DNA from: Telopea speciosissima
Lineage: Eukaryota; Streptophyta; Magnoliopsida; Proteales; Proteaceae
Assembly (NCBI RefSeq): GCF_018873765.1
Contig: NC_057924.1
Coordinates: forward strand, 9,300,001 to 9,364,000
Direction: 5' to 3'
DNA: 64,000 bases
Shown here: piece by piece, positions 6,190 through 34,073 of the stretch
Numbering within the stretch: position 1 is the stretch's first letter
How the letters are laid out: each line of letters begins with the position of its first letter
Translations under genes and position numbers: made by a program
Notes under the pieces: generated by a model
Seen by the model: the letters and a program-made list of their open reading frames with translations, nothing else
What the model was told of the DNA's origin: nothing
Databases searched by the model: none

Positions 6190-7043
6190 CCCACGCTTAA
6201 TTAGTAAGTTCGGGAAGAGCAATTGAACGGAATCGGATACGTTCGGCAATTAAACGGACTAGACAGCAATAATACTTTTCAAAAATCCGGTGTAATAAAA
6301 CGCATATGGTAATAATAGGATACGTGTTTAATACGGTCGTTCTATAAGCAAAAATACAAGCATATATTCACTAAGTAATAGACATGCATCACCTAATAAA
6401 CAAAATAATAGTATATAGACAATGATTTTATCAAAAGAAACCTCACAACTAAAATAAACACAATATAATATCCCCTATTACATCTCATCAGATTATCATT
6501 TAACAAATCAAAATATTAATAAAAGTATCTCATACGACATAAGAAAAGAAAATAAGACATAATGTGTTCTAGAACTCAATTCTAAGATGAGCTCACATCA
6601 ATGAACTCATCTCTAAGATGAACTAACATCACCAATGGAAGTTCATTTGCCTCTGCAATCACCAATTTACCTAGCTGCAATTAACCGTCTACCTGAATTG
6701 AAATGAGAACAGAGATGAAGAAGATGAATGGAATGTGGACAGTCAACGGCTAGGGTTTGAAGAAAAGAAGACCAAAATCGTATTATGCAAAGGTTTTGTT
6801 TTGTGTTTTTTCTTCTTTAAGTTTTGAGTGTTTTTTTTTTTAAACAAAATTAAACTTAAATTAAAAAATATTAAACGCGTTTAATTCATGTTTAATACAT
6901 GTATAATACGGGTGCACTTAAAAAATGAGTATTTTACTATATATATGAAAATATATGTTAAAATATATTTTTTTGAATTAAACGTTCGAATATGTGTATA
7001 ATATGCGTATTATACGCGAACTTACTAACTAAGGTCCCACGCT
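6190..7043. mobile_element. Non-autonomous TIR element with 8-bp duplication (hAT-like), 838 bp
   Basis: Identical 8-bp repeats cccacgct lie at 6190-6197 and 7036-7043. The ends are taattagtaagttcg on the left and, reverse-complemented, accttagttagtaagttcg on the right. The interior is very AT-rich with repeated taatacg and ttaaacg motifs and no coding potential. The TIR does not match the taggggtgtc family found elsewhere in the window, so the superfamily call rests on the 8-bp duplication alone. Confidence 0.65.
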
Positions 7044-25684: not shown

Positions 25685-26055
25685 TTTATTGTTAAGACTT
25701 GCCACATACAGCAGGGAAAGCCTAGATGATGCATTTACTCTTTCTTCAAATAAAAACTGAAACACAAATAGATTTATCGTTTATATCCATAAACAAAAAT
25801 CAGAGGTTAACCTTTTGAGATAGGTGTGTGGTTTGTGTGATTACACTCTCATAAAAAAAAATCAGATTGGATTTGGTTAGTCATTGGTTGATCTTGTGCT
25901 GTTGGGGGTACAATATCATGTAATCCGTCGCTTGCATTTGTGGGGGTTCGAGGGCTACCGCCTCCGAGAAAATTCTTTTAGGGCTACATAGGTGTTTTGG
26001 TAATATGTGCTTATGTAGGGTTCAGGTATATATTTTTAGGGAAGTAGTTTCTTGT

Positions 26056-26201
26056 CTGGGAGTGTGGCCTACGCCAGCGCTCCCATGTGTCTATCTCTCT
26101 CCTCCTCAAAACAAGGGGGCAGAGGTGTCTTTTCAAATGAGGAGGAGAGAGATAGACTCATGGGAGTGCTGGCATAGGCCACCGCCACACTCTCGTACAG
26201 A
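26056..26201. repeat. Palindromic MITE, family A copy 1
   Basis: Left arm gggagtgtggcctacgccag pairs with right arm ctggcataggccaccgcc followed by acactc. Inside, atctctctcctcctcaaa is countered by gaggaggagagagat. A second copy lies at 58983-59113 with the same arms. Confidence 0.8.
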
Positions 26202-26833
26202 GAACTTTCTCCCATATTTTTATTGTGAGATGTTTTTTTTTTTGAGTAAACATCTAGTAGACCCCCTGAGGTTTGTTCACCTATCTTGTAGCCCCCCCAT
26301 TAGTTAAAACCTTACTTATAGACCCCCGAGACTAACGGAATATCTAATCCGTTAGAGTGAACAAGTTAAGTGATGATGTCAGCTGGACATAACTCTAGAA
26401 ATGGCCAAAATACCCTCATGGATTGGTTGTCCTAAAGAATACTCTTCTTTCCTCTTTCGTTCTACTACTACGGTAGCCATTGCCGCTTATTCGAAGGTAG
26501 CCATTGTCGTGGATCAAAGATCTGGTTTCCCCCCCCCCCCCCCTTCATTTTCCTGGTTCACTCACCCAACTTTGAATCCACGTCTCTGTAACTCAGAAAT
26601 GAAAAAAAAATCATGCCTTTCCGCAGAAACAATTGAAGCTCACAGTAATATCAAGCGAAAGCTCTAAAATCTTAACATCTAAATTTGCTTCTATCTGCAA
26701 ACCCTAAACTCTGCCATGTTTCCAATCTAAAGCCCTATGATTTGCTTCAAGTCTTCATTCTCAAGGACGCCAACATTTTGATCATACTGGAATCGGTAAT
26801 TCCTTCAATTTGATGTCGTACAAAAAGATCAAA

Positions 26834-27046
26834 TCAATTCAGTTTACACCCCTCCCCCTGTTCATTCTGGCACTTGGGCGAGTCGAAGCTCATTCCTAAT
26901 TTGCGTAACTCCAGAATCTCGCTCAATTCATCCGAGGTCGACCCTAAAGATGATGAAAAAGGCGATGATGACGAAGAAGAAGAAGATGGAGCATCAAATT
27001 TGTCCATGGCAGGTGCATCTTGAATAAAATAAAATAATCTATCCAA
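26834..27046 (-). pseudogene. Captured DREB C-terminal fragment
   Basis: The minus strand reads AMDKFDAP, a run of Ser, then TSDELSEILELRKLGMSFDS. Group A-4 DREB proteins (TINY-like) have a serine run followed by DEL.EIVELP.LG..., so this appears to be the C-terminal half of the same gene whose AP2 domain lies at 27419-27611. The expected acidic/aromatic C-terminal end is missing. Confidence 0.65.
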
Positions 27047-27119
27047 AATTTCTCTGTTTCACATCCTTCATGCAATTCTGTGTTTTCCTTTCTCTGAAAG
27101 GGGAAAAGTTTTTTCTTCC

Positions 27120-27370
27120 AACAATCTTGTAGCCATAATATACCCTACTCTTCAACAACTTGAAGGTGAATTAACTGAACTGGCGGACAAGAATGAGAAA
27201 GGTGAATGTCCTGAAATTTCAGGAAGGAAGAGGGCAGAAGAGAGGTGGAAGCTTTCCAACAAGGATCTAGAATGAGAGGATGAATATGGGATTTGTATGG
27301 AAGCTTGCACCAAGATGGTCTTGCCCAACTGTGGTCACTCCATGTGCATCAGCTGCTTTCGTGATTGGTA
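27120..27370 (+). pseudogene. Captured RING-finger E3 ligase fragment (AIRP2-like)
   Basis: The plus strand encodes IYPTLQQLEGELTELADKNE, and then, after KLSNKDLE and one TGA, EDEYGICMEACTKMVLPNCG followed by HSMCISCFRDW. This matches the C-terminal RING of plant AIRP2-like ubiquitin ligases (CGIC.E..TKMVLPNC.HS.C..C..DW). The first zinc ligand Cys is Tyr here, an in-frame TGA lies just upstream, and the second half of the RING after DW is absent. It is not a working gene. Confidence 0.75.
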
Positions 27371-27418
27371 ACTGCTGAATCCATATTCAGATTAACTCTC
27401 TTCCAGCCAAACACCAAC

Positions 27419-27611
27419 TACCTTTTATGCTCAACGTCGCCACGTCGTGGGCTCTGGCAGCCATTTCTGGGGTTGGAAATGTGCCCAACCAGATTCTTGA
27501 TTTCTTGCGAGGGTCCCTAATTTTAGAAACCCATTTGCCCCAATTGCGCATTCGAACTCCTCTGTAAATTGGGTGTTTGCTGCAATCTCTCATCCTCTTG
27601 GTTTTCTTCAC
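27419..27611 (-). pseudogene. Captured AP2/ERF (DREB A-4 type) domain fragment
   Basis: The minus strand reads [20 protein letters not shown], then [24 protein letters not shown] in two blocks, then LSIKG. This is the DNA-binding AP2 domain of DREB-type factors, with WVS and the Val/Glu-type DREB surroundings. The preceding KKTKRMRD and a looser serine-rich N-terminal part extend to about 27700. After SIKG the frame leaves the family, so the domain is cut just before its last strand (the AxLNFP part). It is separated from its C-terminal half by the RING fragment. Confidence 0.85.
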
Positions 27612-28154
27612 TTTTGCGTCTTGTAATTTGATCTGTTGCGTTGATGGGTCTCAGATGAGCATAAGAAGGGACTGAGATGAACCAAGTGAGGCATGAGAAG
27701 ATGGAGACGATGAGAAATAGTGGCCACTGCTCTCTGTTTCTGAGTTCTGCATTTCTGCCATTGCGATACCCCAATGGAAGGTTCCTTCGAAGGTCTTTGA
27801 TATTCCAACGTCGGCCATCATATCACAAGATCTGCCAATAGAAGAAATTCAAGCGTCGGCCTGCACGACGATGTAGCTTCTGTCTAAATTGAGCCCTAAA
27901 TTGTTATTTCAAGAGGTTGGAGATGAAATAAGGGTACAAAGGTAATTTTAATTTTGGTTTTTTTCATTAAAGATGTATAAGGGTATTTTTGACATTTAAT
28001 ATGCTGACATCAGCACTTAACCTGTTCACTCTAACGGAATAGGTATTCCGTTAGTTCCAGGGGTCTGTAAGTAAAGTTTTAATTAATGGGGGGACGGCTA
28101 CAAGATAGGTGAACAAACCTCAGGGGATCTATTAGATGTTTACCCTTTTGTTTT

Positions 28155-30467: not shown

Positions 30468-31568
30468 AGACCGTTTCCTCTCCATTCAAAGGTTAGAATA
30501 GATATATTGTCTATCTACATGACAGAATAGAAGTCTTGTGACATTTAGAAAATAAAAGACTAATAATTTGTATTATAAAAACACCAAGAAAAGGTTTGAG
30601 GTAGGGAATGTTAGCACATCTAGTTCTATATCTCTTCTTTTCATATAAAATGATCTAATTGCGCTCCAATGTATGTTAATATTTTGTCACATTTCATTGA
30701 GACACTATACTATGCCACTTGCTTAGAGACATCTCTGTCAAATATTTAAGTCATATCGATATCAATTCTTGACCGATCATCTCGTATTGTCATATTGATG
30801 GATAGACATGGAGTGGACAAGGGTAAAATTGAATTAAATTTTTTTAAAGAAAATAGGGGGTAAACCTTATCAGGACCACTAAAATATTCACTATATTCAC
30901 TGATGGTTATTTATGAATTAAAATAAAAAATGAATTATTCCATTTATTTGGCTGAGAACCCAGTTAGCAGAAAAGTTCCAACAATCGTTGTAGCAGCAAA
31001 AAATTTTTTCACTCTGCAACGGCATAGCCTCCGTGATTGAAGGTCATAAAATGGTATGTTATGTTATGGTGGAAGCTTCCTGAGTGCGCTTAACACTGTT
31101 CCGTCGCGCACTCGCGCAATACCATTTTTCTCCACAGAGGCAGAGACTATTCTTGTGTTGAAGAAGAAGAAGAAGGTCAAATCTTTTGTCACTACTCCAT
31201 TTTGTCTCCTAGTCCTGAAAGTCTTTCCTACGGCCAGACTTCATTTTATTTCCGTGTAAACGAGGAAACGTGGACTTCTCTTGACTCCAAGAAAGGGTAG
31301 TGCTAAGCCCGTAGGTAGGACAGAGGCGACGATGACACCTCCCTTGTTCTTCCTGTTCTTCCTCACCCTTTATTTATTACAATATTTATTAAGATCCCAT
31401 CAACCAGTGTTGGGTGGGTAGATCTTTCCAAAGCCTCGTACTCCATCTTCAAATATTAATTTTTGCGAAAATACGATGAGAAATTACGCAGGTGGTTGTT
31501 ATTGATTCCATTCCAACCTCTTTTCTTCTTCTCCTCCAGTTCTACTAAAATATCTAGCTTCTGCAAAA
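30468..31568. other. Promoter-side flank of the lectin receptor kinase, nothing recognised
   Basis: AT-rich sequence becoming T/C-rich toward 31500, as is common for plant 5' leaders. No clear TATA box or other gene could be assigned. Confidence 0.35.
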
Positions 31569-34073
31569 ATGGTGGATTCAAGAAACAGGGTATGGTTCTT
31601 CATCTGTGTTCTGTTTCTCTGTTTTTCTCTTAACAGCCGTCTCTGTATTGGAGCTGGAGCTGGAATTCTGTCGGTTGGTGAATCTATTTCTGGAGATCAG
31701 ACCATAATCTCCGAAGGGAATGGGAATTTCGAATTGGGTTTCTTCACGAAAGGTAAGTCTCAGAACTACTATGTTGGTATCTGGTACAGAAAGATAACGG
31801 AGAAGACCGTCGTTTGGGTGGCAAACAGGGATAAACCCCTCTCTGATAAGTATGCCTCACAACTGAAGTTCTTAGATGATGGGAATTTAGTCATTCTCGA
31901 CCCATCCAAAACCCTTATCTGGTCGACAAATTTGACCTCCACAACCTCGAATTCTACCGAGGCAGCACTTTTTGATTCTGGAAATTTTGTTTTGAGAAAC
32001 GTGTCAAATTCCTCTGACTTCATTTGGCAGAGTTTTGATCACCCAGCTGATACTTGGTTGCCTGGTGGAAAGATTGGGCTTAATAAACGCACCAATAAAT
32101 CACAGCTCCTCACTTCATGGAAGAATTCAGAGGATCCCGCTCAAGGTCTCTTCTCTCTTGAGCTAGATCCTGCTGGAACCAGTCAATATTTTATATTGTG
32201 GAATGGTTCTGTTAACTACTGGTCTAGTGGGACTTGGGATGGTCATATTTTCAGCTTAGTTCCTGAGATGAGAAGTAATTATATCTACAATTTCTCCTAT
32301 GTTTCGAACGAGAACGAGAACTATTTCACTTATAATTTATATAATTCCACTATTATCTCTAGATTCGTCATGGATGTGTCGGGGCAGATCAAGCAGCTTT
32401 CTTGGCTTGATGGTATCGGTTGGAATTTATTTTGGGCGCAACCGAGACAGCAATGCGAGGTTTTTGCTCTTTGCGGGGGTTTCGGAGCCTGCAATCAGCA
32501 AGCTTCGAGTTCTTGTGGGTGTTTGCAAGGTTTCAATCCACGTTACCCAACAGATTACACAACTCTTAGTGATTGGTCTGGTGGGTGCGTGAGGAATACC
32601 CAACTGCAGTGTATGAATAATGCTTCTGTAAATGGGGAGAAAGATGGGTTCTTGATGATAGGCAATATAACATTGCCCGAAAATCCACGATCTTTGGCAG
32701 TTGAGAGTACCCAGGCCTGTGAATTGGCTTGCTTGAACAACTGTTCTTGTAATGCTTATGCATATGATGGTGGCTGCTCAGTGTGGGAAGGAGATCTCAT
32801 GAATTTGCAGCAACTCTCAGATGGCGTCACTGGTGGAAAGAACCTATATCTCAAACTTGCTGCCTCTGAACTTCGGAATTCGACTTCCGGAGGTAATAAG
32901 AATGGATCAGCTACTGGTGCTATTGTGGGGGCTGTTTCAGGGGCAGTAGCCCTCTTGGGTCTTGTGGCGGTGCTATTATGGGTCTTATGGCAGAGGAGGA
33001 ATTTCGTTGGACGTTCGAAGGTGGAGGGTTCGTTGGTTTCATTTACGTACAGAGATTTACAGAGTGCAACCAAGAACTTCACTGAAAAGCTGGGGGGAGG
33101 AGGGTTTGGTTCTGTTTTCAAAGGAACATTGCCTGATTCCACTGTTGTAGCTGTGAAGAAGCTTGAAAGCGTCAGTCAAGGAGAGAAGCAGTTTCGAACT
33201 GAAGTAAGTACAATTGGGACCATTCAACATGTTAATCTTGTTCGCCTCCGTGGCTTCTGTTCTGAAAGTACTAAAAGGTTGCTGGTCTATGACTTTATGC
33301 CAAAGGGCTCTTTAGATTCCCATATGTTTCATAAAACAAGGGACTCTGACGTTTTAGACTGGAAAACAAGATACCAAATTGCAATTGGGACGGCTAGAGG
33401 ATTAACTTATCTGCATGAGAAGTGCAGAGACTGCATCATACACTGTGACATCAAACCTGGGAACATTCTTTTAGATGCTGAATTCTGTCCCAAGGTGGCT
33501 GACTTTGGCCTAGCCAAGCTTGTTGGTCGGGAATTTAGTCGGGTTCTGACAACCATGAGAGGGACCAGAGGATACCTCGCACCAGAGTGGATTTCGGGTG
33601 TCGCCATTACAACCAAAGCTGATGTTTACAGCTATGGTATGATGCTCTTTGAGATTATATCAGGGAGGAGAAACTCCGATCAACCCGATGGTGAGAATGT
33701 TGGTTTCTTTCCTTCTTGGGCAGCAACCAAAATCAATGAAGATGGAGAAATCCTTAGCCTTTTAGACTACAGGCTAGAAGGTAATGCTGATATTGCAGAA
33801 CTGACCAGAGTCTGTAAAGTTGCTTGTTGGTGCGTCCAAGATGAAGAAGCTCATAGGCCATCAATGGGGCTGGTGGTTCAGATACTTGAGGGAGTAGTGG
33901 ATGTTAGCGCACCTCCCATCCCTAGAACTCTCCAATCTCTCGCGGAGAACCATGAGCACATAGTTTTCTTTGCTGAGCCTTCTTCAAACCAGAGTTCGCG
34001 AGCACGGAGTCCCTCCCCTGGTACTTCCTCTCAGACCAAGAGCACTCCATCATCCACAAGTTCCAAGGCATGA
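31569..34073 (+). CDS. G-type lectin S-receptor-like serine/threonine kinase
   Basis: An intact single-exon reading frame of 834 residues encodes a plasma-membrane receptor kinase like Arabidopsis At2g19130. Order: signal peptide about 1-28; bulb-type mannose-lectin domain about 32-155; S-locus glycoprotein region about 200-325 with a Cys-rich segment; PAN-type domain about 340-430; membrane span about 452-475; kinase about 505-785. In the kinase the glycine loop is LGGGGFGSV (508-516), the ATP Lys is K530 (VAVKK), the alpha-C Glu E545, the catalytic loop HCDIKPGN (625-632), DFG 645-647 and APE 671-673. Cys instead of Arg before the catalytic Asp makes it a non-RD kinase, and Gly replaces the Glu usual in HCDIKPEN. 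A Ser/Pro-rich tail follows. The single exon and length are usual for the clade. No break was seen. The ligand cannot be told from sequence. Confidence 0.96.
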   Translation: MVDSRNRVWFFICVLFLCFSLNSRLCIGAGAGILSVGESISGDQTIISEGNGNFELGFFTKGKSQNYYVGIWYRKITEKTVVWVANRDKPLSDKYASQLKFLDDGNLVILDPSKTLIWSTNLTSTTSNSTEAALFDSGNFVLRNVSNSSDFIWQSFDHPADTWLPGGKIGLNKRTNKSQLLTSWKNSEDPAQGLFSLELDPAGTSQYFILWNGSVNYWSSGTWDGHIFSLVPEMRSNYIYNFSYVSNENENYFTYNLYNSTIISRFVMDVSGQIKQLSWLDGIGWNLFWAQPRQQCEVFALCGGFGACNQQASSSCGCLQGFNPRYPTDYTTLSDWSGGCVRNTQLQCMNNASVNGEKDGFLMIGNITLPENPRSLAVESTQACELACLNNCSCNAYAYDGGCSVWEGDLMNLQQLSDGVTGGKNLYLKLAASELRNSTSGGNKNGSATGAIVGAVSGAVALLGLVAVLLWVLWQRRNFVGRSKVEGSLVSFTYRDLQSATKNFTEKLGGGGFGSVFKGTLPDSTVVAVKKLESVSQGEKQFRTEVSTIGTIQHVNLVRLRGFCSESTKRLLVYDFMPKGSLDSHMFHKTRDSDVLDWKTRYQIAIGTARGLTYLHEKCRDCIIHCDIKPGNILLDAEFCPKVADFGLAKLVGREFSRVLTTMRGTRGYLAPEWISGVAITTKADVYSYGMMLFEIISGRRNSDQPDGENVGFFPSWAATKINEDGEILSLLDYRLEGNADIAELTRVCKVACWCVQDEEAHRPSMGLVVQILEGVVDVSAPPIPRTLQSLAENHEHIVFFAEPSSNQSSRARSPSPGTSSQTKSTPSSTSSKA

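Follow-up and report, generated by a model that had tools for sequence, protein, structure and literature searches.

How did a fragment of a RING gene come to lie between two parts of a DREB gene, in the opposite orientation, within a single transposon? This arrangement occurs in the window, the whole stretch of 64,000 nucleotides of Telopea speciosissima DNA that was analysed (C9, 9300001-9364000). The original prediction had read it as a Mutator-like element (MULE) in which two host regulatory genes are fused. We searched the genome for the donors of the cargo, for copies of the element and for relatives of the acceptor. The features of the locus are collected in Table 1.

Table 1. Features of the element and its target-site duplications, in positions of the window
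Feature	Position	Strand	Details
Left target-site duplication, TTTTTTTTT	26235..26243	.	8/9 bases equal to the right one; T-run, weak here
MULE-type element	26244-28145		two inverted ends of ~140 bp, 89% match
Left TIR, starts GAGTAAACATC	26244..26383	+	89% inverted match to 28003-28143
MULE-own left subterminal sequence	26384..26559	+	common to L031 and L032, divergence directly after GGTTC
Third captured fragment, 280 bp	26562..26841	+ (gene-sense)	92% to C10:51560783-51561062
Filler of ~20 nt, third fragment/DREB joint	26842..26861	.	in neither donor
DREB C-terminal block	26862..27026	-	95% to C3:17.059 Mb; donor residues ~135-193, 12-bp deletion
AIRP2-like RING fragment	27026..27402	+	95% to C8:5942109-5942485, 19 differences in 377
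Inferred RING exon	27133-27367	+	from reading frame and AG/GT; intron 3' end before, next intron 5' end after
Filler of 15 nt, RING/DREB joint	27404..27418	.	absent from RING donor; DREB donor match poor at best
DREB 5' flank tip, start codon (27752) and AP2 to about residue 111	27419..27772	-	94% to C3:17059209-17059561
Stop triplet in DREB part	27651-27653	-	common to the copies
MULE-own right subterminal sequence	27771..28002	+	matches C7:5849766 (77%), C1:76398496 (74%), others in part
Right TIR	28003..28145	-	inverted match to left TIR
Right target-site duplication, TTTTGTTTT	28146..28154	.	pairs 8/9 with the left one

Ends and class of the element

A MULE with paired terminal inverted repeats (TIRs) had been predicted at 26244-28145, and this was confirmed. 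Positions 26246-26383 paired with 28003-28143 at 89% over 141 columns, and the mismatch between the two ends that would have spoken against a MULE was absent. The MULE-own parts of the element comprised 26244-26559 on the left and 27771-28145 on the right. PMC3310237 gives TIRs of 100-500 bp and target-site duplications (TSDs) of 9-11 bp as MULE features, and the element lay within both ranges. The C1 sister copy of the element had a perfect 9-bp TSD (TTTTATTTA, 9/9). The two sides matched at 8 of 9 bases in the window copy and in the C7 and C8 copies, and at 7 of 9 in the C3 copy. A scan of eight other loci of the family with the exact end motif gave TSD pairs of 9/9 in the relatives L023, L026 and L034, and no TSD pair in the five loci L019, L024, L028, L033 and L031. 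The ends of L031 are one base off the scanned motif; by reading, its TSD was TTTTCCTTA on both sides (9/9).

Host gene fragments from three donors lay between the TIRs, and the parental genes were located outside the element at C3:17.059 Mb, C8:5.942 Mb and C10:51.561 Mb. No transposase domain was found in the pieces searched with Pfam. The element is an amplified non-autonomous three-donor Pack-MULE.

Donors of the captured fragments

The DREB blocks, predicted on the minus strand on both sides of the RING piece, were traced to a donor at C3:17.059 Mb with a 242-codon intronless frame and an AP2 domain (E 9.7e-16); a paralog of this donor with 83% identity was present on C7. Both blocks were collinear in this one gene, and 70 donor bases were missing between them, at the RING site. 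The AP2 domain of the element was recognized by Pfam above the cut-off (E 1.9e-14), and the C-terminal piece gave no Pfam match. Although an AP2 block was indeed present, the predicted limits of 27419-27611 were too short and missed the ~47 first codons and a little of the 5' flank; the block extended over 27419-27772. The C-terminal block likewise existed, but its limits had to be corrected from 26834-27046 to 26862-27026.

The RING fragment was truncated in the middle of the domain. Pfam assigned the half-domain to zf-C3HC4 above the cut-off (E 6.2e-5), and eight other RING models remained below theirs. The plus-strand, AIRP2-like character of this piece was as predicted, whereas the range 27120-27370 was replaced by a block at 27026-27402 with an inferred exon at 27133-27367. 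This block ran beyond both inferred exon ends into donor intron sequence. Since the exon kept its intron edges, DNA and not mRNA was copied, and a retroposed origin of the piece was ruled out. All seven candidates scored for the RING block were accounted for by five element copies, the C8 donor and an 82% paralog on C3, and none of them adjoined the DREB donor (C3:17.06 Mb). An adjacent RING and DREB arrangement outside a MULE, which would have undermined the prediction, was thus not seen among the seven RING matches. The two genes were also ruled out as neighbors in the host genome, their donors being on C8 and C3.

The two predicted donors were therefore found to be distinct, but the description of two host regulatory genes had overlooked a third donor on C10. 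The third fragment originated from 367 to 88 bases upstream of the inferred ATG of a DUF1681 (NECAP-type) gene, whose 174-codon open stretch matched PF07933 (E 3.3e-54). A search with this fragment gave nine matches, of which all but three short ones were examined.

Copies of the element in the genome

The 823-Mb genome was searched with a query of 2,001 bases around the element, and 40 of 341 candidates were scored, so the counts are lower bounds. At least 90 matches to this query were obtained, and beyond the donors and paralogs they were mainly TIRs and adjoining sequence. Besides the window copy on C9, full-length copies were found on C1 (92%), C3 (90%) and C8 (89%). The C7 copy was shortened and lacked 26456-26857. 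The C10 copy, without RING, was broken into two pieces 3.7 kb apart in opposite orientation, and its breaks fell within both DREB blocks; it is situated at C10:12.57 Mb (L018:1925-2556 and 6214-6665). Including these two damaged copies, the element was present at no fewer than six places. The C9, C1, C3, C8 and C7 copies differed pairwise by 4.4-9.3%, with C3 and C8 forming the closest pair. The order of the parts and the joints were identical in all copies that still hold the parts, indicating that the chimera was assembled only once, before its spread. The C7 copy was considered as an ancestral form preceding the third fragment, but MULE-own sequence (26456-26559) was missing from it as well, so a deletion is simpler.

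All six copies covering this position had the stop triplet in the DREB part, five of them in the frame set by the start codon. The C10 copy had a 1-base insertion before the triplet and a different stop in frame a few codons earlier. The common stop indicates that the DREB cargo was already broken before the spread. The original prediction had also pointed to decay, from a TGA, a missing zinc ligand and truncated domains. All of these were present, but the TGA and the Cys-to-Tyr change at the zinc ligand were private to the window copy (one of five), with CGA and TGT in the four other copies holding the RING piece. These two lesions are thus silent on the state of the element at its spread. 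Elsewhere, the RING piece was interrupted by a stop in C8 and had lost single bases at two sites in C3, and in C1 and C8 the Trp codon that ends the exon was missing.

Relatives of the acceptor and formation of the chimera

L031 (C7:5.85 Mb) and L032 (C1:76.40 Mb) had subterminal sequence in common with the element on the left as far as GGTTC (26559) and on the right beginning at ~27771, and their interiors differed. This divergence makes the breakpoints of the acceptor visible. L031 (L031:3923-6629) had TIRs of the same family, a 9-bp TSD and a Senescence_reg fragment (PF04520, E 7.1e-11). L032 (L032:3497-5098) contained a DUF4005 fragment (PF13178, E 5.3e-12); its 9 kb gave no TIR, and it is a relative by its subterminal sequence on both sides. 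The interiors of seven relatives were translated, and five frames from four of them (L031, L032, L033 and L026) were searched with Pfam, leaving out L019, L020 and L034. One of the two L031 frames and the L032 frame matched, and the L033 and L026 frames gave no Pfam match. These fragments show that uptake of other host DNA has occurred among the relatives no less than once, and probably a second time.

Two further loci of the family were inspected. In the family member L026:255-1789, the TIRs are far longer, pairing at 90% over 327 columns, and the 9-bp TSD is perfect. A relative at C3:43.09 Mb was considered as an autonomous member and rejected; the long frames there look like those of a Ty3-type retroelement, as named by reading. 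This Ty3-like retroelement (L029/L030, C3:43.092-43.106 Mb) lies next to a further TIR-family member, or inside it.

The joints in the element were short. Two extra bases separated the MULE sequence from the third fragment, one base was common to DREB and RING, and two bases (CC) overlapped between DREB and the MULE on the right; the remaining two joints contained the fillers listed in Table 1. Such joints look like the products of repair by copying with template switches. In the reading that we prefer, with a probability of about 0.93, a non-autonomous element of a host-DNA-capturing Mutator-like family lost its interior, the gap was refilled from three donors, and the chimera was then mobilized in trans and spread. 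The loss would have occurred between 26559 and 27771. Genomic DNA of three unlinked genes, namely the upstream stretch of the DUF1681 (NECAP-type) gene, DREB and the RING exon flanked by intron edges, would have been copied into the gap and the pieces joined via overlaps of 1-2 bases and fillers of 2-20 bases, with gap repair by template switching as the probable route. A MURA-type transposase made elsewhere would then have carried the finished chimera to at least six places, and the window copy would now be an inert, decaying passenger.

Order of capture

The original prediction had offered two orders of events, a DREB gene captured first with RING placed inside it later, or a single gap repair, and both fit the arrangement. 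In the former case, DREB would have been taken up whole, and a later internal break would have been patched with RING, with the loss of 70 bases of DREB. The collinearity of the DREB blocks, with only these 70 donor bases and the 12-bp deletion missing, argues for such a patch. However, no DREB-only element was found among the strong matches (14 of 14 candidates scored: as strong matches the six copies, the donor and the paralog, and beyond these six weaker ones at 70-79%). The C10 copy does carry DREB without RING, but it is broken inside both DREB blocks. A RING-only element was likewise absent from the seven of seven candidates scored for RING.

The differences fixed between all copies and their donors also bear on this order. 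They amounted to 0 of 139 in the DREB C block, 7 of 351 in the DREB N block (two element-side, four donor-side and one unresolved) and 10 of 373 in RING (nine element-side and one donor-side); the third fragment had 10 of 275, counted unpolarized with no paralog used. Element-side changes were thus in excess in RING (9/373) over DREB (2/490), with P = 0.012 in a Fisher test that was unplanned and chosen after the counts were seen, and the unpolarized fixed differences (10/373 versus 7/490) gave P = 0.22. Four of the ten fixed RING changes lay in the intron edges and six in the exon, where five fell within 22 bases (27134-27155) and, by reading of the codons, three of the six were silent. By these counts, the RING piece seems no younger than the DREB piece, and the prediction of a later RING is not favored by them. 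A younger piece would be expected to show the opposite of this excess, provided that its template was not already divergent; either a variant form of the RING gene that differed slightly or careless copying would account for it. We put capture of DREB first and RING later at somewhat less than even odds.

In the latter case, each of the two broken ends would have copied the same DREB gene, one from either side, with the left end first copying the DUF1681 stretch, and RING would have served as the bridge. The joints are common to the copies holding them and consist of 1-2 base overlaps and short fillers, as such a repair would leave them. Intermediates holding only some of the fragments did not turn up among the element copies and the strong cargo matches, so the steps were not seen; this too is consistent with one event. 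The unequal fixed divergence of RING and DREB, on the other hand, suggests templates of different history, but it is not decisive. A single repair event comes close to an even chance in our estimation.

Coding capacity and possible RNA function

The open reading frame has not been kept. Five of six copies have the early DREB stop in frame, the sixth has a frameshift and another stop, and RING is cut in mid-domain. We saw no sign of a functional fused protein, which is also unlikely given coding pieces on opposite strands and the early DREB stop.

The element might instead have been kept for an RNA acting on the donors, such as antisense or small RNA directed at the DREB gene, or for the use of a spliced RING exon. 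On the plus strand, the DUF1681 upstream piece comes before the RING exon and the intron edges around it, and DREB lies antisense, an arrangement that would suit this role. However, the RING is truncated in mid-domain, and the copies carry lesions of their own at 4.4-9.3% pairwise difference, and we regard such a role as improbable. A specific regulatory cassette, in which the host upstream piece would drive a plus-strand transcript containing the RING exon and running antisense through both DREB blocks, appears very improbable. If it did exist, as many as six loci would yield small RNAs tuning the donor DREB gene and perhaps also that of RING.

Comparison with known Pack-MULEs

The element shares long TIRs, a 9-bp TSD, host gene fragments and amplification as a unit with plant Pack-MULEs, as described in PMC3310237 and PMC13317346, and like them it had no transposase domain in the pieces searched. 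It does not differ from them in kind, but with three donors, one of which is split by another in opposite orientation, it is more intricate than a single capture. The tomato PM-ZIBP family (PMC3310237) is also an amplified Pack-MULE family and has AT-rich 9-bp TSDs; unlike the present element, it contains one parental gene fragment and tandem TIRs in most members. In Oryza, putative MULE-derived genes with two or more parental genes are given as about 5-10% in most species in PMC4858842, so several parental genes in one element have a precedent. In comparison with those cases, one donor here supplies only upstream DNA, the coding pieces lie on opposite strands, and DREB has an early stop.

Animal multicopy Pack-TIRs have been explained by template switching followed by transposition (FoSTeST, PMC8277862). 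There, too, overlaps of 1-2 bases or short inserts occur at the joints, and the chimera is amplified afterwards; the same paper leaves open whether FoSTeST applies to plant Pack-MULEs. The present case bears on the formation of plant Pack-MULEs, a question that PMC8277862 calls worth exploring, because related species could show whether one event or several steps took place. Among the ten titles listed out of 1,013 papers, we found none on a Pack-MULE with DREB, RING and AP2, which is no proof of absence from print. With one of its three donors interrupted by another, this Pack-MULE is a detailed case of a known kind and not a new gene or system. It is unusually complete, in that a single genome shows the donors, the acceptor relatives, all joints at a resolution of a few bases and the later spread.

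Neighboring sequence

A short palindromic element (26039-26213) lay directly to the left of the MULE, with inner arms of 45 nt that were 93% complementary, and a relative of it with 84% identity was found at L027:3097-3240. At a distance of 3.4 kb to the right of the MULE, an 855-codon open frame (31506-34073) reads like a putative lectin-type receptor kinase.
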